Positions 6,811-14,704 of a stretch of DNA of 33,737 bases are shown here, piece after piece; the stretch's first letter is position 1; each line of letters starts with the position of its first letter. The stretch is from the NCBI GenBank assembly GCA_027459705.1, contig DAIDHM010000101.1:1-33737 (forward strand). The letters run 5' to 3'. A program made the translations under genes and the position numbers. Origin of the DNA: Ktedonobacteria bacterium (GTDB taxonomy: Bacteria; Chloroflexota; Ktedonobacteria; Ktedonobacterales; JACDGC01). The notes beneath the pieces were generated by a model, which was given only the letters and a program-made list of their open reading frames with translations, was not told the DNA's origin and searched no databases.

Positions 6811-9800
6811 CTATGGAGCGATGGTCTCCTTGATAACGACTGGTCCTGCACCCGCTGGTTGTGTTGTGATGGTCACAGTAAAATCAGTAGAAGTTGTCAC
6901 GAACGTGCAGAGATTCACCAGGGGGGTCAAGGTCACGGTCATGGTGCCACCAGCAGGCACGATCCCTGTGGTTTGACCGGCAGGTACGGAGGCCCACACT
7001 ATCCCGGTTGGCAGTAGCGTGGATGGATCAATTGCCAGTGTCCAGCTGACCGCCACAGTGCTTTTTGAATTATCAAACTGAATGGCGATGGGATTCAACG
7101 TGGTAGGATTCGGTGCAACAGGACAGGTTTGCGTAAGCGGGTTTGCTGTGATGGCTAACGCATTGACTGGTGGGGGATTGATCGTATAGGCGATAATGCT
7201 CGGTGCCGCGGTTGGCTGTGGATTGGGTGCATTGGTGGCAGCAGGCGTTGCGATGACATTAATGGTGTAGGTCTGCGCTGGTGCGGCTCCGGCACTGAAC
7301 AAGGCCTGGCAGATGGTGGGTGCGGGAGTCACCGTAATCGATCCATGTTGTCCGGCGGCGATTGTACCGGTTCCAAGGTTCAGCGATGCCCAGGGTTGCG
7401 CGCCAGTCGTGGTTGCGAAGGTGCCAATGACCGTCGCAGTCCACTGAATGTTGATGCTACTCGCGCTGTTATCAAGTACGAACGCACTTGGGGCGAGCGC
7501 GCCGTAGGCTGGAGAGCAAGTCACGGCATAGGCGGCGGGTGTCGCAACCAACTGCATGGTAGGCGGTTGTATGCTGTCTGAAAGTGTATAAGGAGTATTT
7601 GTTGACAGTCCAGATATGACGAGCGGCGCGTTGAATGTAAGATTTTGCGGTGTACCCGCCATATTTACAAGTGCTGAACAGAGTGTTGGGGCTGGTTGGA
7701 GCATAATCTGTTCCGTGCCATGCGCCGGTATCGTCCCCTGGGCTGGTGCTGCGACTGCCCACAAATGAGCGGTGTTTGGCGCGAGTTGTTGAATGGTGAT
7801 ATTCCAATTCACTGGGACGGTGCTCCGCGAATTGTCTAAGGTGATAGCTAGCGATGCCAGCGGACTGAGGTTGGCATCACATACCTGGGTATACGTAGTG
7901 TGGGCGATCGCGAACGCTAAAACTGGTATGGGTGTTGGTATTGGCGTATGGGTCGGTTGTGGCGGCGGCCTGAGTGTTGGTGTTGGCGCAGGTCGCGGCG
8001 TAGGTAAGATCACCGGTAGAGCGGTAGGGGGAGTGGTTGGTTGAGGGACGTCCACAAAGGGTGGCGGCGTTGCTGGATGGTCCGATCCCACCGTGAGGGT
8101 TGGTTGCAGTTGACTTATCCTTTGTTGGGAAGCTGAACCCCATATTCCAAGTGGAAGCTTGGTCAATGCCATCGTGGCTCGACAGAGCACGATCAACATC
8201 GCGAGCGCAACAACTGCCACAATCCCGGCACGTTGACGATTGATACCATATCGCTCGTGTCCGGTTGATGGAGATGTTCGTGTTCGGGAGATCTCGCGCA
8301 GTTTTGCGGCAGCGAGCGGTGGTGCAGCCGGATGTGATAATTGGCGTAGCGTCTGCGCGGTCTGGCCATAACAATCAATCACAGTCACGGCTATCTGGCG
8401 CACTGCGCTTGCTGAGGTCGATGATAGGGGTATGTGCTGATTGGGATCGTCCAGCCGAGATGGGTCGAAGGTTGCCTCATGCCAGTCGATCAGGTATTGG
8501 TGCTGATGCCGAACTTCGCTATCCGGTATGTCTTGAGCGCCGTCTATAAGCACGTTGTTCGATACCCGGAAACCAGCAATGGTTCCTGATGGTGATCTAT
8601 TGGCCTGCACGCTATCGTTACGCGACTGATGCACAGTCCGCCAGTAATAATCATAAGGCGCATAGGAAGGTTTTAGCAGTGTGGTTCGCCAAATATCTCG
8701 ATCAGGTCCGGGGTTGTGTTGCACTGCTGTGCCACGATGAGATGGCATATTGCCTTCCGTCGCATTGGCACCCTGCAATGTCAACAGAATTTCAGGTTTC
8801 AGCGCAGGTGTGAGCGGTTGAAAGTGTGTATGATCTGGGATGATATAAAAAGCTACCACCATATCACCAAGTATGTCTATCGTAGCAGGAACTGCCATGT
8901 AATCAATGTTCGTACCTGGCACCAGCAATTGGATGCGCATTAGCGGCTGGATAAGCGGCTGCAAGGTGGCGACGATCTGATGCAATCGTGAGGAATCGGT
9001 CGCAATGGTACATTCGCGCAACAGAGCGGATATGATGGGGGTGTGTGCATCAGCGGTATGTGTGGTATTCGATTGGCCGTTCGTCATTGAGTTGGCGGCT
9101 AAGCTGGCATGCTGGATATCCGAGATAGGATAACATAACACCATATTACTGCCAGGATGCTTGGAGATGAGATCGTTCCATAGTTCATGATTTGCTATGA
9201 TGTGCTCAAGGTGGAAGGACGAAAGCGGGTTCGTCATTTCCGGCATCGTTCGCATTGGCGTATTTGCTGAACCTGATTGCTGATCGATGCATTCCGGCGA
9301 TCCTGAGCTACCCCGCGAGTTGGTGGATAGCGGATGTTCCACGTCTGATGGGTGGTCCGCACCAGGCCCATATCCGTCTGATGGAGCGTCACTCTTCTGT
9401 TGTGGGTTGGGTGTTGATGTTGAGTTTGCCGCGTACTGATCCCCGGTTGGAGGAGGTGGCTGCGCAGTATATAACGCAAGTCCGCTGACATTGGGCTTTC
9501 CAGACGGACTGAGAAACGGAATGAGAGGCATGGCATTGGTATGGCTATCCGGGAGTTCGAGCACCCTGGTCATGGGAAGTTGGCTGTGCATGATCGCATA
9601 GGAGATGCTAAAATCTTCAAGTGCATCAATGAAGGTGCGGCGGAACTCGACGCGAAAATTGGCGAACGCAGCATGTGCTTCCTGGAGTAGCTGGGTTGGG
9701 ACGGGGCCATCACCGTAGGTAATATGCACATCATCGAGATCCAGATGGTCAAACAATAGACCTACCAACCAATGGCCACCTCGAGTCATGCAACGAGGTC

Positions 9801-10320
9801 GAAAATCTATACGTACGATTCCACTGAGACTGAAGATACGCCCACTGTTTACGTCCTGAATACCACCGAAGCAATCACAAATGAAGCGAAGCGATTGATC
9901 CTCATGTGAGGCATACGGCTGATGATCAGGTCGGATCACACCGCTGGACAGGTTATGTGCAGTGGATGGTAGGGCGCCTGACTGCATGCGCACTACAGGT
10001 CTTTCGATCCAACCATGCATAACGAAGTGACGCGTGGACATGTGGAATTGTCGGGGACCTGTCGACTGAGAAGATGTGTTGAAGTCTGATGGGAATGCAC
10101 TTTGTTGTGGGGAATCCTCTTTGTCACCATGTGCATCCGGGGGATGCTGTTGCAGTTGTCTCATGATGAGATCATGAATAACTCGCTCACTGAAATAAAC
10201 GAAAAAATCTGATGTGGGATGGTTTGCTGGCGGCTCCCGAACTGCCGACTCTTTAGGAACGCCTGATCGTGAAGCAATATCATGCTCGGGCTCAAGGTCG
10301 AATGATGGAGGTTCAGACAT
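6811..10320 (-). CDS. large single-pass membrane protein with three extracellular BACON/Ig-like repeats; function unknown
   Basis: The 1169-residue protein has a long soluble N-terminal part (1-690) that I cannot assign. One TM helix at about 696-716 (AGIVAVVALAMLIVLCRA) is followed by a Pro/Thr-rich stalk (about 735-790) with PTPRPAPTPTLRPPPQPTHT. Three repeats of about 125 residues come next, each opening with a Cys and a block like LAITLDNSRSTVPVNW, FVLDNSASSINIQW or IAIQFDNSKSTVAVSW. Each ends with a Gly-rich strand such as GTIAAGQHGSITVTPAPTIC. They resemble BACON-type beta-sandwich domains, which often bind carbohydrate or act as spacers. The topology suggests a cytoplasmic sensor or anchor with a projecting extracellular arm. 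The ATG follows AGGGGTG. Topology is confident; role is not. Confidence 0.8.
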   Translation of the reverse strand: MSEPPSFDLEPEHDIASRSGVPKESAVREPPANHPTSDFFVYFSERVIHDLIMRQLQQHPPDAHGDKEDSPQQSAFPSDFNTSSQSTGPRQFHMSTRHFVMHGWIERPVVRMQSGALPSTAHNLSSGVIRPDHQPYASHEDQSLRFICDCFGGIQDVNSGRIFSLSGIVRIDFRPRCMTRGGHWLVGLLFDHLDLDDVHITYGDGPVPTQLLQEAHAAFANFRVEFRRTFIDALEDFSISYAIMHSQLPMTRVLELPDSHTNAMPLIPFLSPSGKPNVSGLALYTAQPPPPTGDQYAANSTSTPNPQQKSDAPSDGYGPGADHPSDVEHPLSTNSRGSSGSPECIDQQSGSANTPMRTMPEMTNPLSSFHLEHIIANHELWNDLISKHPGSNMVLCYPISDIQHASLAANSMTNGQSNTTHTADAHTPIISALLRECTIATDSSRLHQIVATLQPLIQPLMRIQLLVPGTNIDYMAVPATIDILGDMVVAFYIIPDHTHFQPLTPALKPEILLTLQGANATEGNMPSHRGTAVQHNPGPDRDIWRTTLLKPSYAPYDYYWRTVHQSRNDSVQANRSPSGTIAGFRVSNNVLIDGAQDIPDSEVRHQHQYLIDWHEATFDPSRLDDPNQHIPLSSTSASAVRQIAVTVIDCYGQTAQTLRQLSHPAAPPLAAAKLREISRTRTSPSTGHERYGINRQRAGIVAVVALAMLIVLCRATMALTKLPLGIWGSASQQRISQLQPTLTVGSDHPATPPPFVDVPQPTTPPTALPVILPTPRPAPTPTLRPPPQPTHTPIPTPIPVLAFAIAHTTYTQVCDANLSPLASLAITLDNSRSTVPVNWNITIQQLAPNTAHLWAVAAPAQGTIPAHGTEQIMLQPAPTLCSALVNMAGTPQNLTFNAPLVISGLSTNTPYTLSDSIQPPTMQLVATPAAYAVTCSPAYGALAPSAFVLDNSASSINIQWTATVIGTFATTTGAQPWASLNLGTGTIAAGQHGSITVTPAPTICQALFSAGAAPAQTYTINVIATPAATNAPNPQPTAAPSIIAYTINPPPVNALAITANPLTQTCPVAPNPTTLNPIAIQFDNSKSTVAVSWTLAIDPSTLLPTGIVWASVPAGQTTGIVPAGGTMTVTLTPLVNLCTFVTTSTDFTVTITTQPAGAGPVVIKETIAP

Positions 10321-10537: not shown

Positions 10538-12445
10538 TCATATTCGCAACTTCGCTGCATGTGTAAGGACAGAAGTCACACTGGTCTCTTCGCCTTGATC
10601 AATGCCAATAAAATGCTCCTGATGTTGATGCCAAAATGTTCGAAGATGCGCGACTTTGCCAACACAGGCGATACGGTCGCCAGGCTCCAGGCGAACATCA
10701 TCCGCTGGAATGCGGATGATTGTATCACCTCGCCAAATCCCAATGATCGAGATGTCAGGTATTGCGTTTATTCTCGTGCTTGACTGGCAAATTGTGGCGA
10801 GGGTCTCGCCAACCAATGGTGAAGCGGAAGAAAGTATGGCGCTGCGCATGGCATACAAATCCTGATCGAGCATGAAGCCAAGCTCAATGCCAGGAAACAT
10901 CGCGGCGGCCGCGAAAGTGGGGCTGGCGAGATTAGAGACACTATATGAAGTCACGATGTGAAACATCGTCGCCAGTTCATCGGCAAGTTCTTCACTGAAG
11001 ACACGCAGAACAATATGGATATGCGGATTGCAGCGCCGTGCTTCCAATGCCACGCGTACATTCAGCTCATCATCTGAGGTAACTGCCGCAAAGGTCATGG
11101 CGTCTTTGAGTCCAGCACGGACCAGGAGCTCCATGTCGCGGGCATCTCCATGTACCATTTCCACGTTCTCGTAGCGGCTGACGATTTGGCTAAAGGCCGT
11201 ATTGGCTTCTTCCGTGCGCTGGATGACGACGATTTTGAGATGCTCGCGCCACTGATGTAAGCGAGTGACCATCCGGAATCCCATCTTGCCCAAACCACAG
11301 ATCATAATGACTTGTTGATCATTGGTTGATAATGCCAGAGCATGCGTTCCCACCCCTACCTCTGACACATGTGTCGTGTGATTCAGGCCAGCAGACTGCT
11401 CTGCGGCGGAAGTAAGTTCAGCGCGCATGGCATCCAAGTTTTGCATCGTACCAAGAATATTGAGATGCACATCCGTATACCCCGATACTTCATGGGTCGC
11501 TATTTTCAAGATCCGGACACCATAACGCTGCTCCAGAGCTGGAAGATTGTTGATGCTCTGCTGCGAAAGGGGAAGCCGTAGTCTTTCTATAGCGACAATT
11601 TGGTTGCCATGATCCCCGAGAGGTAACGCGTAGATAATGTTTCTTGCGAGCGTCGCCGCGGTAAAAGTTGGTGCTGCGAGAGCTGAGGCGCTGAAAGCAC
11701 TGGCTCGGCCAAAAAAGCTCTCGACACCATTGTCAAAATATTCATTGAATGTGCGTAAAAATACTGCTATATTGGCATTCATTTGACGTGCAGCTAAGGC
11801 GATCTCGAGGTCGATGAGGTCACCATCGATAACTCCGACAATGCTGCGCGCGCGCATGACCCCCGCGCGCTCCAAAATTTCCGTATGACGAGCATCGCCA
11901 TTGATGATCGGGACCCCCATATGGAGTAATGGTTGTACGAACTCGGTTTCCCAGTTGTTCTCAATCACGACAACTCTTTCATGCGCCGCGACCAGACGCG
12001 CTGCGACGCGATACCCCATACGACCAGCACCACAGATAATGTGGTGCTGGTGTTGCACCATGGCGCGTCCCCCCTGTCGATCTTTTATCCTGAGCGGGTT
12101 AAATAATACTCTAGCGGAGTCAAAGACACTTTGGGCAAATAGAATAGTAAAGAGGATATTCAGCACAATCAGAATGGAACCAACGGTATCATGCGACACA
12201 TCACCGATATTATTCAGGGTTAAAAAGGTCACAGCGCGTAACAGATCGATGGGAAAGGTCGATTGTGGATCGTGCATGCTGATATACAGGGTGTTGACGA
12301 GAATGATGATGGATAATAACGATAATGCGGTAAGGGCGCCGAAATAATATGGCCGACGATTCAGCAGGCCTGCGCGGATCCATTCCCACACCGTCAAACG
12401 GAGCTTGATGATGCGCTTGTGAGGGGGATGCGATGCTCCTGGCAT
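10538..12445 (-). CDS. two-TM, double RCK (TrkA-N/TrkA-C) ion-channel-like protein
   Basis: Two TM helices near the N-terminus (FGALTALSLLSIIILVNTLY and VGSILIVLNILFTILFAQ) flank a pore-loop-like segment LRAVTFLTLNNIGDVSHD. Two Rossmann RCK units follow. The first begins HHIICGAGRMGYRVAARL and contains GDARHTEILERAGV; the second begins VIMICGLGKMGFRMVTRL and contains GDARDMELLVRAGL. A C-terminal TrkA-C-like domain has DVRLEPGDRIACVG. The layout matches K+ channels gated by tandem RCK domains and bacterial CASTOR/POLLUX-like channels. The usual TVGYGD filter is not present. I start at the ATG of 12443-12445 because GAGGAG sits 6 nt upstream; a TTG at 12484 would add 13 residues. The cyclase gene lies upstream on the same strand, 233 bp away. 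Confidence 0.85.
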   Translation of the reverse strand: MPGASHPPHKRIIKLRLTVWEWIRAGLLNRRPYYFGALTALSLLSIIILVNTLYISMHDPQSTFPIDLLRAVTFLTLNNIGDVSHDTVGSILIVLNILFTILFAQSVFDSARVLFNPLRIKDRQGGRAMVQHQHHIICGAGRMGYRVAARLVAAHERVVVIENNWETEFVQPLLHMGVPIINGDARHTEILERAGVMRARSIVGVIDGDLIDLEIALAARQMNANIAVFLRTFNEYFDNGVESFFGRASAFSASALAAPTFTAATLARNIIYALPLGDHGNQIVAIERLRLPLSQQSINNLPALEQRYGVRILKIATHEVSGYTDVHLNILGTMQNLDAMRAELTSAAEQSAGLNHTTHVSEVGVGTHALALSTNDQQVIMICGLGKMGFRMVTRLHQWREHLKIVVIQRTEEANTAFSQIVSRYENVEMVHGDARDMELLVRAGLKDAMTFAAVTSDDELNVRVALEARRCNPHIHIVLRVFSEELADELATMFHIVTSYSVSNLASPTFAAAAMFPGIELGFMLDQDLYAMRSAILSSASPLVGETLATICQSSTRINAIPDISIIGIWRGDTIIRIPADDVRLEPGDRIACVGKVAHLRTFWHQHQEHFIGIDQGEETSVTSVLTHAAKLRI

Positions 12446-12678
12446 GTTCTTCTCCTCGTGTCCTGGGAATACTCCTATCGTCAAAGATGGAGCTCGGTCA
12501 ATGAGTGTATCAATGAGTACTCATCAATCTAGACTTGCGGTGGCCGCTCCATTTGCTGAGGGCTCATGCCAACCAGTCAGAGTCAATACACAATCTTTCT
12601 CTGCCCCCTGTGTGAGGATTCTTCTTCATCCCATGAAACTGTTGATAGATCCAGGCGATGTCCAGCGGCCTCACTTCG

Positions 12679-14619
12679 TCACCGTAGACCGCGTAATTCC
12701 CAGAGCGTGAGTGGTTTGGATTTACCTTTGACGACGACTGATTGATAGGGTGTGACAAGTACCATTTCCTCAATTCTGCGATACAAATCATCATGCATGA
12801 GCACCCGGTTTTCGCGAGCTACTTCCTGAATGCGTTTCGCGGTATTGACGGCATCGCCGATAGCCGTATAGTTCTGGATGCGATTATGGCCAATGTTGCC
12901 GACGTATGCTTGCCCGATATGCACCCCAATACCGAATTCGACTGGTTTCTGCCCGGTGCGTGTGTTTTGCTCGCGCAGGGCAGTCTGCATACGCCAGGCG
13001 GCGCGCGCCGCACGGAGAGCATGATCTGTCTGGTCCATAGGGGCATTGAAGATGGCCATGAGGGCATCTCCCTGGAACATGGTGACCGTCCCACCTTCGT
13101 GAAAGACTATTTCTGTTAACAGATTGAGATATTCATTGAGAAGCGTGAAAAGTGGCTCTGGGGCAAGTGATTCGCCTAGTTTGGTGAAATCACGGAGGTC
13201 AGCAAAGAGGATCGAAATTTCGCGCGTGCTACCGCCTAAGATAGCGGCGGAAGGATGGTGCCTGACTAATTCTACGACGTTTGGATGGACATATCGCTCG
13301 ATCCGTTTGGCGGCTTCGCGTTCCGCTTCAATTTCGGTAAGATCATCAATAACAATCACTGTTCCAAGTCGTTGTAAGTCGGCGCTGCGTAACGCTGACC
13401 AGCTGAAGTTCAAGCGGTGTGGTGTTGTTTGGTCCGCAATCATTGTGTCAGCAAGATATGAATCGTGGATGTCGGGAACATCAATAGATTGTGCGATACG
13501 ATCGATAATTGAACGATTTTGAATGGTTTGTAACGCAGCAGAATAAGGCTTATTCAGGACCTCACGTTCGGTGAAACCCAGGATGCGCGTGGCGGCGGGG
13601 TTCGTGCGGGTAATGCGCCCGCTTTTATCCAGGGCGATGACGCCACTGGCGATCGACGCCAGGATGCTATCAGTATAGTTTTTCATCGCGGCAACTGTCT
13701 GCATCTGCATCTGTTGTTGAGCAAAGAGATCGGCATTCTCCAATGCGATAGCTGCCAGATTACAGAACGCCGCAAGCAGATCGAGATCATCCGAACTAAA
13801 CGCGCGTTCGGTTTCTCGACGGTCAACGTAGACCATACCAACGACCTGGTCTTGCGTGCGAAGGGGAGATACCATCAAGGTGTGAATGCCATTACGGGTG
13901 ACACTGGCATCTTGACTGGTGAGTGGCTCAGATTGCACAGATGGAGTGAGGTGTGGTTCTTGTTGCCGCCAGCTCTGTTCGACAGCAGCGCGGCAGATGA
14001 GCTCATCGGAGAGGGGGAGCGCTCCCTGCCCACGATGGCAGGCAGCCTCAAACTGTAGGTGCGCATCATAGGCACGACGAGGGAATCCCGAACTGCTGTG
14101 TCCCTCGCGAGCAAGTGATGAGCCGGAAGGGCCGATGCCAGACGCGCGCTGCATAAAAATCGCGCCGCGATCGCCGCGTACCAGGACCAGAAGGTCCTCC
14201 AGAACGCGGTTGAGCAGTTGCTGGCGCTGGAGGGTACCATTGAGGTGTTCCGCGATGACACAGAGCGATTGGAGTTGGCCACGTTCGGTCCGCAACGTAT
14301 CGATGGTTGAGCGTGCGGCGTTGGCGGCGAACTCAAGTTCCCCCAGAAGATTGTTGATTTCAGCGAGGTGGTCCCCGAGGTGGCCCAGAATCTCTGGCGT
14401 TGCAAATGCCGGCGGGATCGTGGAATTATTTGGTGCGGCACTGTGCTGCGCAAGATGAGTGATAAGGGAAGCAATTTCTTCGCGGGTGGAATGAATGGCA
14501 CGTGCCGCGCGTGCCTGGACGTCTGCGGCGAGAGTCAGGGGGCCGGCGACTGGATTCGTAATGCGAGTGGGAAGACCGCCAGCGCTCAGAAAAGGACCAT
14601 CGGGGTCAGAGATCGCCAT
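12679..14619 (-). CDS. GAF-PAS class III adenylate/guanylate cyclase
   Basis: A cytoplasmic signalling enzyme of 646 residues. An N-terminal helical region leads into a GAF domain (about 120-300), with LLNRVLEDLLVLVRGDRGAI and SPLRTQDQVVGMVYVDRR. A PAS domain (about 320-430) has SILASIASGVIALDKSGRIT and NPAATRILGFTEREV. A short helix then leads to the cyclase homology domain (about 455-610): ISILFADLRDFTKLGESL, TVTMFQGDALMAIFNAP and YTAIGDAVNTAKRIQEVA. Both metal Asp residues and the transition-state Asn/Arg are present. The position normally Lys in xDKFxGD is Met here, so nucleotide preference is open. The ATG at 14619 has GGAGGT 5 nt upstream. It would make a cyclic nucleotide in response to a GAF/PAS ligand. 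Confidence 0.9.
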   Translation of the reverse strand: MAISDPDGPFLSAGGLPTRITNPVAGPLTLAADVQARAARAIHSTREEIASLITHLAQHSAAPNNSTIPPAFATPEILGHLGDHLAEINNLLGELEFAANAARSTIDTLRTERGQLQSLCVIAEHLNGTLQRQQLLNRVLEDLLVLVRGDRGAIFMQRASGIGPSGSSLAREGHSSSGFPRRAYDAHLQFEAACHRGQGALPLSDELICRAAVEQSWRQQEPHLTPSVQSEPLTSQDASVTRNGIHTLMVSPLRTQDQVVGMVYVDRRETERAFSSDDLDLLAAFCNLAAIALENADLFAQQQMQMQTVAAMKNYTDSILASIASGVIALDKSGRITRTNPAATRILGFTEREVLNKPYSAALQTIQNRSIIDRIAQSIDVPDIHDSYLADTMIADQTTPHRLNFSWSALRSADLQRLGTVIVIDDLTEIEAEREAAKRIERYVHPNVVELVRHHPSAAILGGSTREISILFADLRDFTKLGESLAPEPLFTLLNEYLNLLTEIVFHEGGTVTMFQGDALMAIFNAPMDQTDHALRAARAAWRMQTALREQNTRTGQKPVEFGIGVHIGQAYVGNIGHNRIQNYTAIGDAVNTAKRIQEVARENRVLMHDDLYRRIEEMVLVTPYQSVVVKGKSKPLTLWELRGLR

Positions 14620-14704
14620 TGGATACCTCCACAACTCTCAGGGTGAGCGAAAATAGGAACTGCAGAGAGTATAACACAGGAGAGCAGTGTGTTGAGCATA
14701 TGAT

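Follow-up and report, generated by a model that had tools for sequence, protein, structure and literature searches.

A mostly Chloroflexota family of predicted two-TM, RCK-bearing pore proteins without the potassium channel filter

Channels and transporters for K+ and, in plants, a Ca2+ channel are known to carry RCK gating rings, and the filter glycines are needed for K+ selectivity. Among the described systems, the one nearest in full-length fold to the protein studied here is GsuK of Geobacter sulfurreducens (PDB 4gx5, 4gx0-4gx2), which carries TM1, a pore helix, TM2 and a tandem RCK in one chain and has the filter TTLGFGD. MthK (PDB 1lnq, 6u68 and others) joins a two-TM pore, with the filter TVGYGD, to one RCK per chain, and TrkA (PDB 4j9u) is a soluble tandem RCK protein without a pore domain. 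CASTOR and DMI1 (PDB 6o7a, 7vm8) have a tandem RCK gating ring. CASTOR is a plant nuclear channel with four predicted TM helices and the filter AD265S(A)GNHA in place of TVGYG; it is reported to be Ca2+-selective, and D265N abolishes its current (PMC6697748).

Here we describe a gene from a Ktedonobacteria bacterium (GCA_027459705.1, contig DAIDHM010000101.1), found in a stretch of 33,737 nucleotides that was analysed whole and is called the window. Its product is predicted from modelling to be TM1-pore helix-TM2 followed by RCK, as in RCK-gated two-TM channels of the GsuK/MthK type.

The gene and its predicted fold

ORF analysis of the window places the gene on the minus strand at 12445..10538, coding for 635 aa with no internal stop. 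The start ATG is at 12445, directly preceded on the minus strand by the Shine-Dalgarno-like GAGGAGAAGAAC, and the stop is at 10538; the ORF listing also has an alternative in-frame start, TTG at 12484. The features are as follows.

10538..12445, minus strand: coding sequence of the 635-aa protein, stop codon included (open frame, ATG with GAGGAG upstream)
12272..12355, minus strand: TM1, residues 31-58 (AlphaFold helix 31-58)
12221..12256, minus strand: pore helix, residues 64-75 (AlphaFold helix; aligned with the MthK segment before TVGYGD)
12188..12220, minus strand: filter-equivalent loop TLNNIGDVSHD, residues 76-86 (alignment to GsuK TTLGFGDIT and MthK ATVGYGDYSP)
12212..12214, minus strand: Asn78, the conserved Q/E/N/D site of the family (residue counts in non-redundant relatives)
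12101..12187, minus strand: TM2, residues 87-115, including Gln105 (AlphaFold helix 87-115)
11396..12049, minus strand: RCK1, about residues 133-350 (TrkA_N and AlphaFold model)
10634..11314, minus strand: RCK2, about residues 378-604 (TrkA_N 380-493 and TrkA_C 538-604)

An earlier note on this DNA had set a channel with tandem RCK domains at 12060-12445. That interval does hold the pore domain (residues 1-128), but both RCK domains lie outside it. In the whole protein, Pfam finds TrkA_N in two stretches (138 bits for the protein) and TrkA_C in one. The AlphaFold model of the monomer, built with 22 family members, has TM1, pore helix, loop and TM2 and then two complete RCK folds. Its mean pLDDT is 84; the blocks over residues 31-120 range from 74 to 86, and the lowest are 75 (residues 71-80) and 74 (residues 81-90) in this monomer. 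A single-RCK relative from Herpetosiphon aurantiacus, also modelled as a monomer, gives the same order of TM1, pore helix (58-69), loop and TM2; its pLDDT is 87-94 across residues 31-100, falling to 73-76 at the far ends of both TM helices.

The filter position in the window protein and its relatives

In the alignment to the family profile, TTLGFGD of GsuK falls on TLNNIGD of the window protein, whose loop residues are L77-N78-N79-I80-G81-D82. Column 78 comes to lie on V of TVGYG (L in GsuK); the family-profile alignment with GsuK and the pore-only-profile alignment with MthK concur in this placement, which could be off by one. The motif G[YFIMW]G is absent from the entire 635-aa protein, and its sole GLG, at residue 384, belongs to the RCK2 Rossmann motif. 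Pfam recognises no pore family of ion channels, either in the whole protein up to E 1 or in the isolated pore. The sequence confirms that the TxG[YF]GD of GsuK/MthK-type K+ channels is absent from the window protein. The earlier note had pointed to the non-canonical segment TFLTLNNIGDVSHD between the TM helices; it occupies residues 73-86 (12229..12188, minus strand), and the observation holds for the relatives described below. Both AlphaFold monomers have the pore helix. The G-D echo of GYGD within the loop looks accidental, since columns 81 and 82 are not conserved in the relatives (L at column 81 in 34/53 tandem proteins, D at column 82 in 22/53).

Relatives were collected by searches of genomes. 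At a match threshold of E 1e-20, 12/41 genomes (own genome and relatives) and 57/301 (own genome and phylum) had a match, the own genome being counted each time. The genome searches yielded loci for at most 30 among the matches listed, and rarer variants may be missing. A single-sequence search of the genome contigs gave no match; a search with the alignment as a profile did. Of 138 loci that the profile matched in named genomes, the best 80 were kept. By title these are mostly Ktedonobacterales, Chloroflexales, Herpetosiphon and Anaerolineae; a few are titled Myxococcota, Armatimonadota, Abditibacteriota or Actinomycetes, and Proteobacteria is the title of two Centralia MAGs (L062, L066). The 135 profile-matched ORFs reduced to 108 distinct ones and, after removal of 6 antiporter ORFs, a TrkA fragment (L002), an RCK-only ORF (L112) and a copy with an identical pore (L121), to 99 pores. 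Second pieces or copies of proteins already included (L014, L015, L001, L055-L058) had been excluded beforehand, and L110 was included though its N-terminus looks frameshifted. The 99 distinct pores comprise 53 pore-RCK-RCK proteins (the window protein among them), 38 pore-RCK and 8 RCK-pore-RCK.

A filter of the form G[YFLIM]G[DNQST] occurs in 0/91 of the pore-RCK and pore-RCK-RCK proteins (38 single, 53 tandem), while GYGD is present in 8/8 RCK-pore-RCK relatives. Judged by these sequences, the missing K+ filter is a property of the family and not a peculiarity of the window protein. Thinning the 91 filterless pores so that all were below 85% identity left 72 for the residue counts. Column 78 is then Q in 41, E in 21, N in 4, D in 3, A in 1 and G in 1, with one gap, so that Q/E/N/D stands in 69/71 of the non-redundant relatives having a residue there. 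P84 is found in 63/72 and G100 in 61/72 of this set, and D86 in 44/53 tandem proteins. Column 105 is Q in 52/53 tandem proteins and mixed in the 38 single-RCK proteins (Q 10, D 8, R 6, N 6, A 4, others 4). Beyond column 78 and P84, and D86 among the tandem proteins, the loop is widely variable. In the window protein column 78 is N; unlike the family, it carries S at column 84 and T at column 100. Two proteins, L128 (titled only 'bacterium') and L134 (titled Actinomycetes), carry the loop LLLDLSTSHTD and are apparently a separate filterless subgroup.

With residues 1-180 alone, phmmer found no PDB chain up to E 1. When E up to 10 was allowed, a pore-only profile matched 23 PDB sequences, every one of them named as a potassium channel (MthK, KcsA, KCNQ4/5, TOK1 and one 'potassium channel protein'; best E 0.049). 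The filterless and the GYGD pores, compared as profiles, matched weakly (21% probability, pairwise E 0.0011), and Pfam gave only scattered matches on 37 isolated pores, none to Ion_trans_2 and one to Ion_trans at E 0.075. Searches of open-access literature found no description of the family.

The altered loop does not look as though it were decaying; it is under purifying selection about as strong as that on the RCK1 Rossmann lobe. In 14 disjoint close tandem pairs, dN/dS was 0.121 for TM1, 0.096 for pore helix plus loop, 0.098 for TM2 and 0.094 for the RCK1 Rossmann lobe; in 6 single-RCK pairs the corresponding values were 0.241, 0.098, 0.092 and 0.071, one RCK-pore-RCK pair having been omitted from the set. 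The loop alone, which has few sites, gave 0.109 in the tandem and 0.041 in the single-RCK pairs. By weighted column conservation the loop (0.454) ranks near TM1 (0.435) and the pore helix (0.468); both RCK C-lobes are less conserved (0.404, 0.377), and TM2 (0.528) and the Rossmann lobes (0.582, 0.544) more so. The polar residues of TM2 share one helix face (100-degree moment, permutation p 0.010), as is expected of a water-lined inner helix, and other explanations for this exist.

RCK domains and gene neighbours

The Rossmann nucleotide motif GxGxxG...E/D, as in the GsuK/MthK type, is present in full in RCK1 of the window protein (GxGxxG and E162), where nucleotide binding is predicted; RCK2 has GxGxxG, but Q409 replaces the acidic residue. 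The same holds broadly for the 53 tandem proteins. In RCK1, all 53 have GxG, 39 have the third G and 52 have E/D at the end of beta-2. In RCK2, GxGxxG is present in 51, with an acidic residue at the end of beta-2 in only 2 (D 2, C 27, H 7, Y 6, R 6, T 2, Q 1, S 1, A 1). The earlier note's statement that the RCK pair is well kept is borne out for both folds.

The origin of the pair was approached with a tree of 75 RCK domains from 48/99 proteins, which holds no GsuK sequence, is rooted at the midpoint and has most forks open. The RCK1 domains of the 19 tandem proteins make up one group (93) and their RCK2 domains another (100, starred); the two, together with 3 single-RCK proteins, two from the Herpetosiphon family group and one from a Chloroflexota MAG, join in a larger one (SH-aLRT 87, unstarred, midpoint root). 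The tandem pair probably arose by duplication inside this clade, the simplest reading of the tree being that the RCK domain was duplicated in a pore-RCK protein that was already filterless. The N-terminal RCKs of the GYGD-bearing RCK-pore-RCK proteins fall among the single-RCK groups with weak support, and the tree alone does not unite the filterless proteins in one clade. A tree constrained to keep the filterless rows together, apart from the 16 rows of GYGD proteins, had a slightly higher likelihood and was not rejected (p-AU 0.67), and a single loss of the filter is therefore possible.

The surroundings of the gene differ between lineages. In the window, a GAF-PAS-class III cyclase gene (12679-14634, minus strand) lies directly upstream on the same strand, 233 bases away. 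A cyclic-nucleotide system was considered on this ground and set aside, with only one weak cyclase match beside the relatives in the 80 neighbour-set loci, many of which have short flanks. Elsewhere in the window (6811-10320, minus strand) is a 1169-aa protein that no Pfam family matches at E 0.001; inspected by eye, it holds towards the C-terminus about three copies of a segment with DNS.S then W.

Among 47 tandem loci, trpD is directly upstream on the same strand in at least 17 (L068, L070, L073-L075, L077, L079, L083, L086, L088, L092, L093, L097, L098, L100, L101, L104), trpC directly downstream in at least 16, and both are present in at least 10. These are lower bounds, as the channel ORF of L094 was lost in ORF picking and several contigs end early, and the gene identities are by Pfam of one representative each. 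Save for L077 and L095, titled only Chloroflexota or Chloroflexi, the trp-linked records are titled as Chloroflexales lineages, and because nearly all are Chloroflexales the linkage may be an inherited gene order there. A link to tryptophan synthesis was likewise considered and set aside; neither trpD nor trpC adjoins the window gene. In 4/6 Herpetosiphonaceae loci (L117, L119, L121, L126; not L110 or L137) an antiporter gene on the same strand directly precedes the gene. The gap is 14 bases in L117, and in L119, L121 and L126 the two ORFs, as picked, overlap; the L119 antiporter, the one submitted to Pfam, has the domains Na_H_Exchanger-TrkA_N-TrkA_C.

The own genome (95% complete) encodes one TVGYGD K+ channel and one TLGLGD channel, both on other contigs, on which TrkA_N was not found. 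TrkH gave no match in this genome, although contig C208 has two adjacent TrkA_N matches (C208:18219-19047). Two proteins of this genome were noted for their pores. L053 (C131:24213-24443, plus strand) has the pore motif TTIFTLGLGDISP, with GLGD replacing GYGD, and matches Ion_trans_2 above the cut-off (44 bits). L054 (C49:11493-11696) has pentapeptide-like repeats with a terminal, weakly Ion_trans_2-like pore (20 bits, under the cut-off) that carries FASFTPVGLTLLP and no GYG.

Candidate functions and known systems

Taking sequence and models together, we infer a cation channel gated by nucleotide, its filter short and polar and its selectivity other than for K+, and put the probability of this reading, in which conduction, selectivity and ligand are all inferred, at roughly 0.5. 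The protein would belong to the pore-loop channels of the two-TM, RCK-gated type, with a single pore built from four subunits and a gating ring made of their eight RCK domains. The ancestors of a mostly Chloroflexota group would have lost the K+ filter, perhaps once, and gained in its place a short loop in which amide or carboxylate side chains (Q, E, N or D) form one ring at V of TVGYG, a site that might be compared with the Q/R/N site of glutamate receptors. An adenine nucleotide bound to RCK1 might open or close the inner helices. Because the stacked carbonyl cage is absent, the pore would be expected to pass cations with a weak preference for K+ or a preference for divalent ions. The purifying selection on the loop, the pore helix in two models and the Q/E/N/D at column 78 lean towards such an altered selectivity; the variability of the loop, save for column 78, P84 and D86, counts against a real filter, which does not usually vary so widely. 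Also in favour are the GsuK-like architecture, the potassium channels matched by the pore-only profile, the polar face of TM2 and the E/D of RCK1; on the other side stand the best E of 0.049 of that profile, the 21% probability in the comparison with the GYGD pores, a loop less conserved than TM2 and the Rossmann lobes, the pLDDT of 75 and 74 in the monomer, and column 105, mixed in single-RCK relatives.

The same loop could belong to a pore domain that does not conduct and only anchors or assembles the RCK domains at the membrane, the protein then sensing nucleotides or redox state and acting on a partner. This is the main rival, which we consider possible but less likely. A GYG-type filter is absent in 91/91 proteins and most loop columns vary, as this explanation would have it, and possible partners adjoin the gene in some lineages, namely the RCK-bearing antiporter in Herpetosiphonaceae and trpD/trpC in Chloroflexales. 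It is opposed by the selection on the loop, similar to that on RCK1, by the retention of a pore helix that a plain anchor would not need and by the polar residue kept at the filter position; a structural role could also explain each of these.

A silent subunit, co-assembling with a canonical K+ channel and lowering or changing its conductance, would find candidate partners in the TVGYGD and TLGLGD channels of the own genome. This is unlikely, however: those channels are on other contigs with no TrkA_N match, and no channel was recognised among the typed neighbour genes, a minority of the neighbours. That GsuK is the best full-length fold match and that the pore-profile matches are all potassium channels would suit a channel that is still K+-selective through an unusual filter, with side chains in the place of backbone carbonyls; with the filter glycines absent, we regard this as very unlikely. 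Least credible is membership in the CASTOR/POLLUX/DMI1 family. The gating rings of CASTOR and DMI1 do match the window model with Z 18.7-19.5, above MthK (16.1), and CASTOR (PMC6697748) is likewise without TVGYG and carries an acidic filter residue. TrkA (24.9) and GsuK (23.1) score higher, however, and the assignment is contradicted by the filter motif (AD[SA]GNHA is absent from the pore alignment), by the TM count (two helices in the model as against the four predicted for the plant channels) and by Pfam, whose 13 matches include no CASTOR-type family.

If the preferred reading, a cation channel of altered selectivity, is true, it would show how a K+ channel can be turned into something else with its pore fold and gating ring kept and the replaced filter under selection; the family, with its single-RCK, tandem and GYGD-bearing members, is suited to direct swaps. 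More tentatively, there may be Chloroflexota-wide bacterial RCK-gated cation channels with a Q/E/N/D ring, non-selective or passing Ca2+/Na+ and controlled by nucleotide, that reached independently a counterpart of CASTOR.

The comparison with known systems may be drawn as follows. GsuK (4gx5_C; Z 23.1 over 438 residues, model range 30-614) shares with the window protein the entire order of domains in one chain, and differs in having its K+ filter. Its nucleotide motif is reported for RCK2 (PMC3510474), the opposite of the window protein, whose acidic residue is in RCK1 and absent in RCK2. This difference supports a tandem history separate from that of GsuK, and the window tandem looks duplicated inside its own group. 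MthK shares the two-TM pore followed by RCK and is the best pore-only profile match; it differs in its TVGYGD filter and single RCK. TrkA, the highest-scoring fold match, shares the tandem RCK fold over model residues 133-610 and differs in being soluble and poreless. CASTOR and DMI1 likewise have tandem RCK domains, whose gating ring may resemble that of the window protein in fold (rmsd 7.8-13.0, Z below TrkA and GsuK), and a polar or acidic filter residue without TVGYG; they differ in filter sequence, TM count and origin as plant nuclear channels. The altered selectivity that the earlier note had proposed on the model of CASTOR/POLLUX is where the evidence leans, but the window protein may be likened to CASTOR, by analogy, in working principle and not in descent. 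At the level of the family, the parts, a pore fold and an RCK ring, are known and their combination is new.
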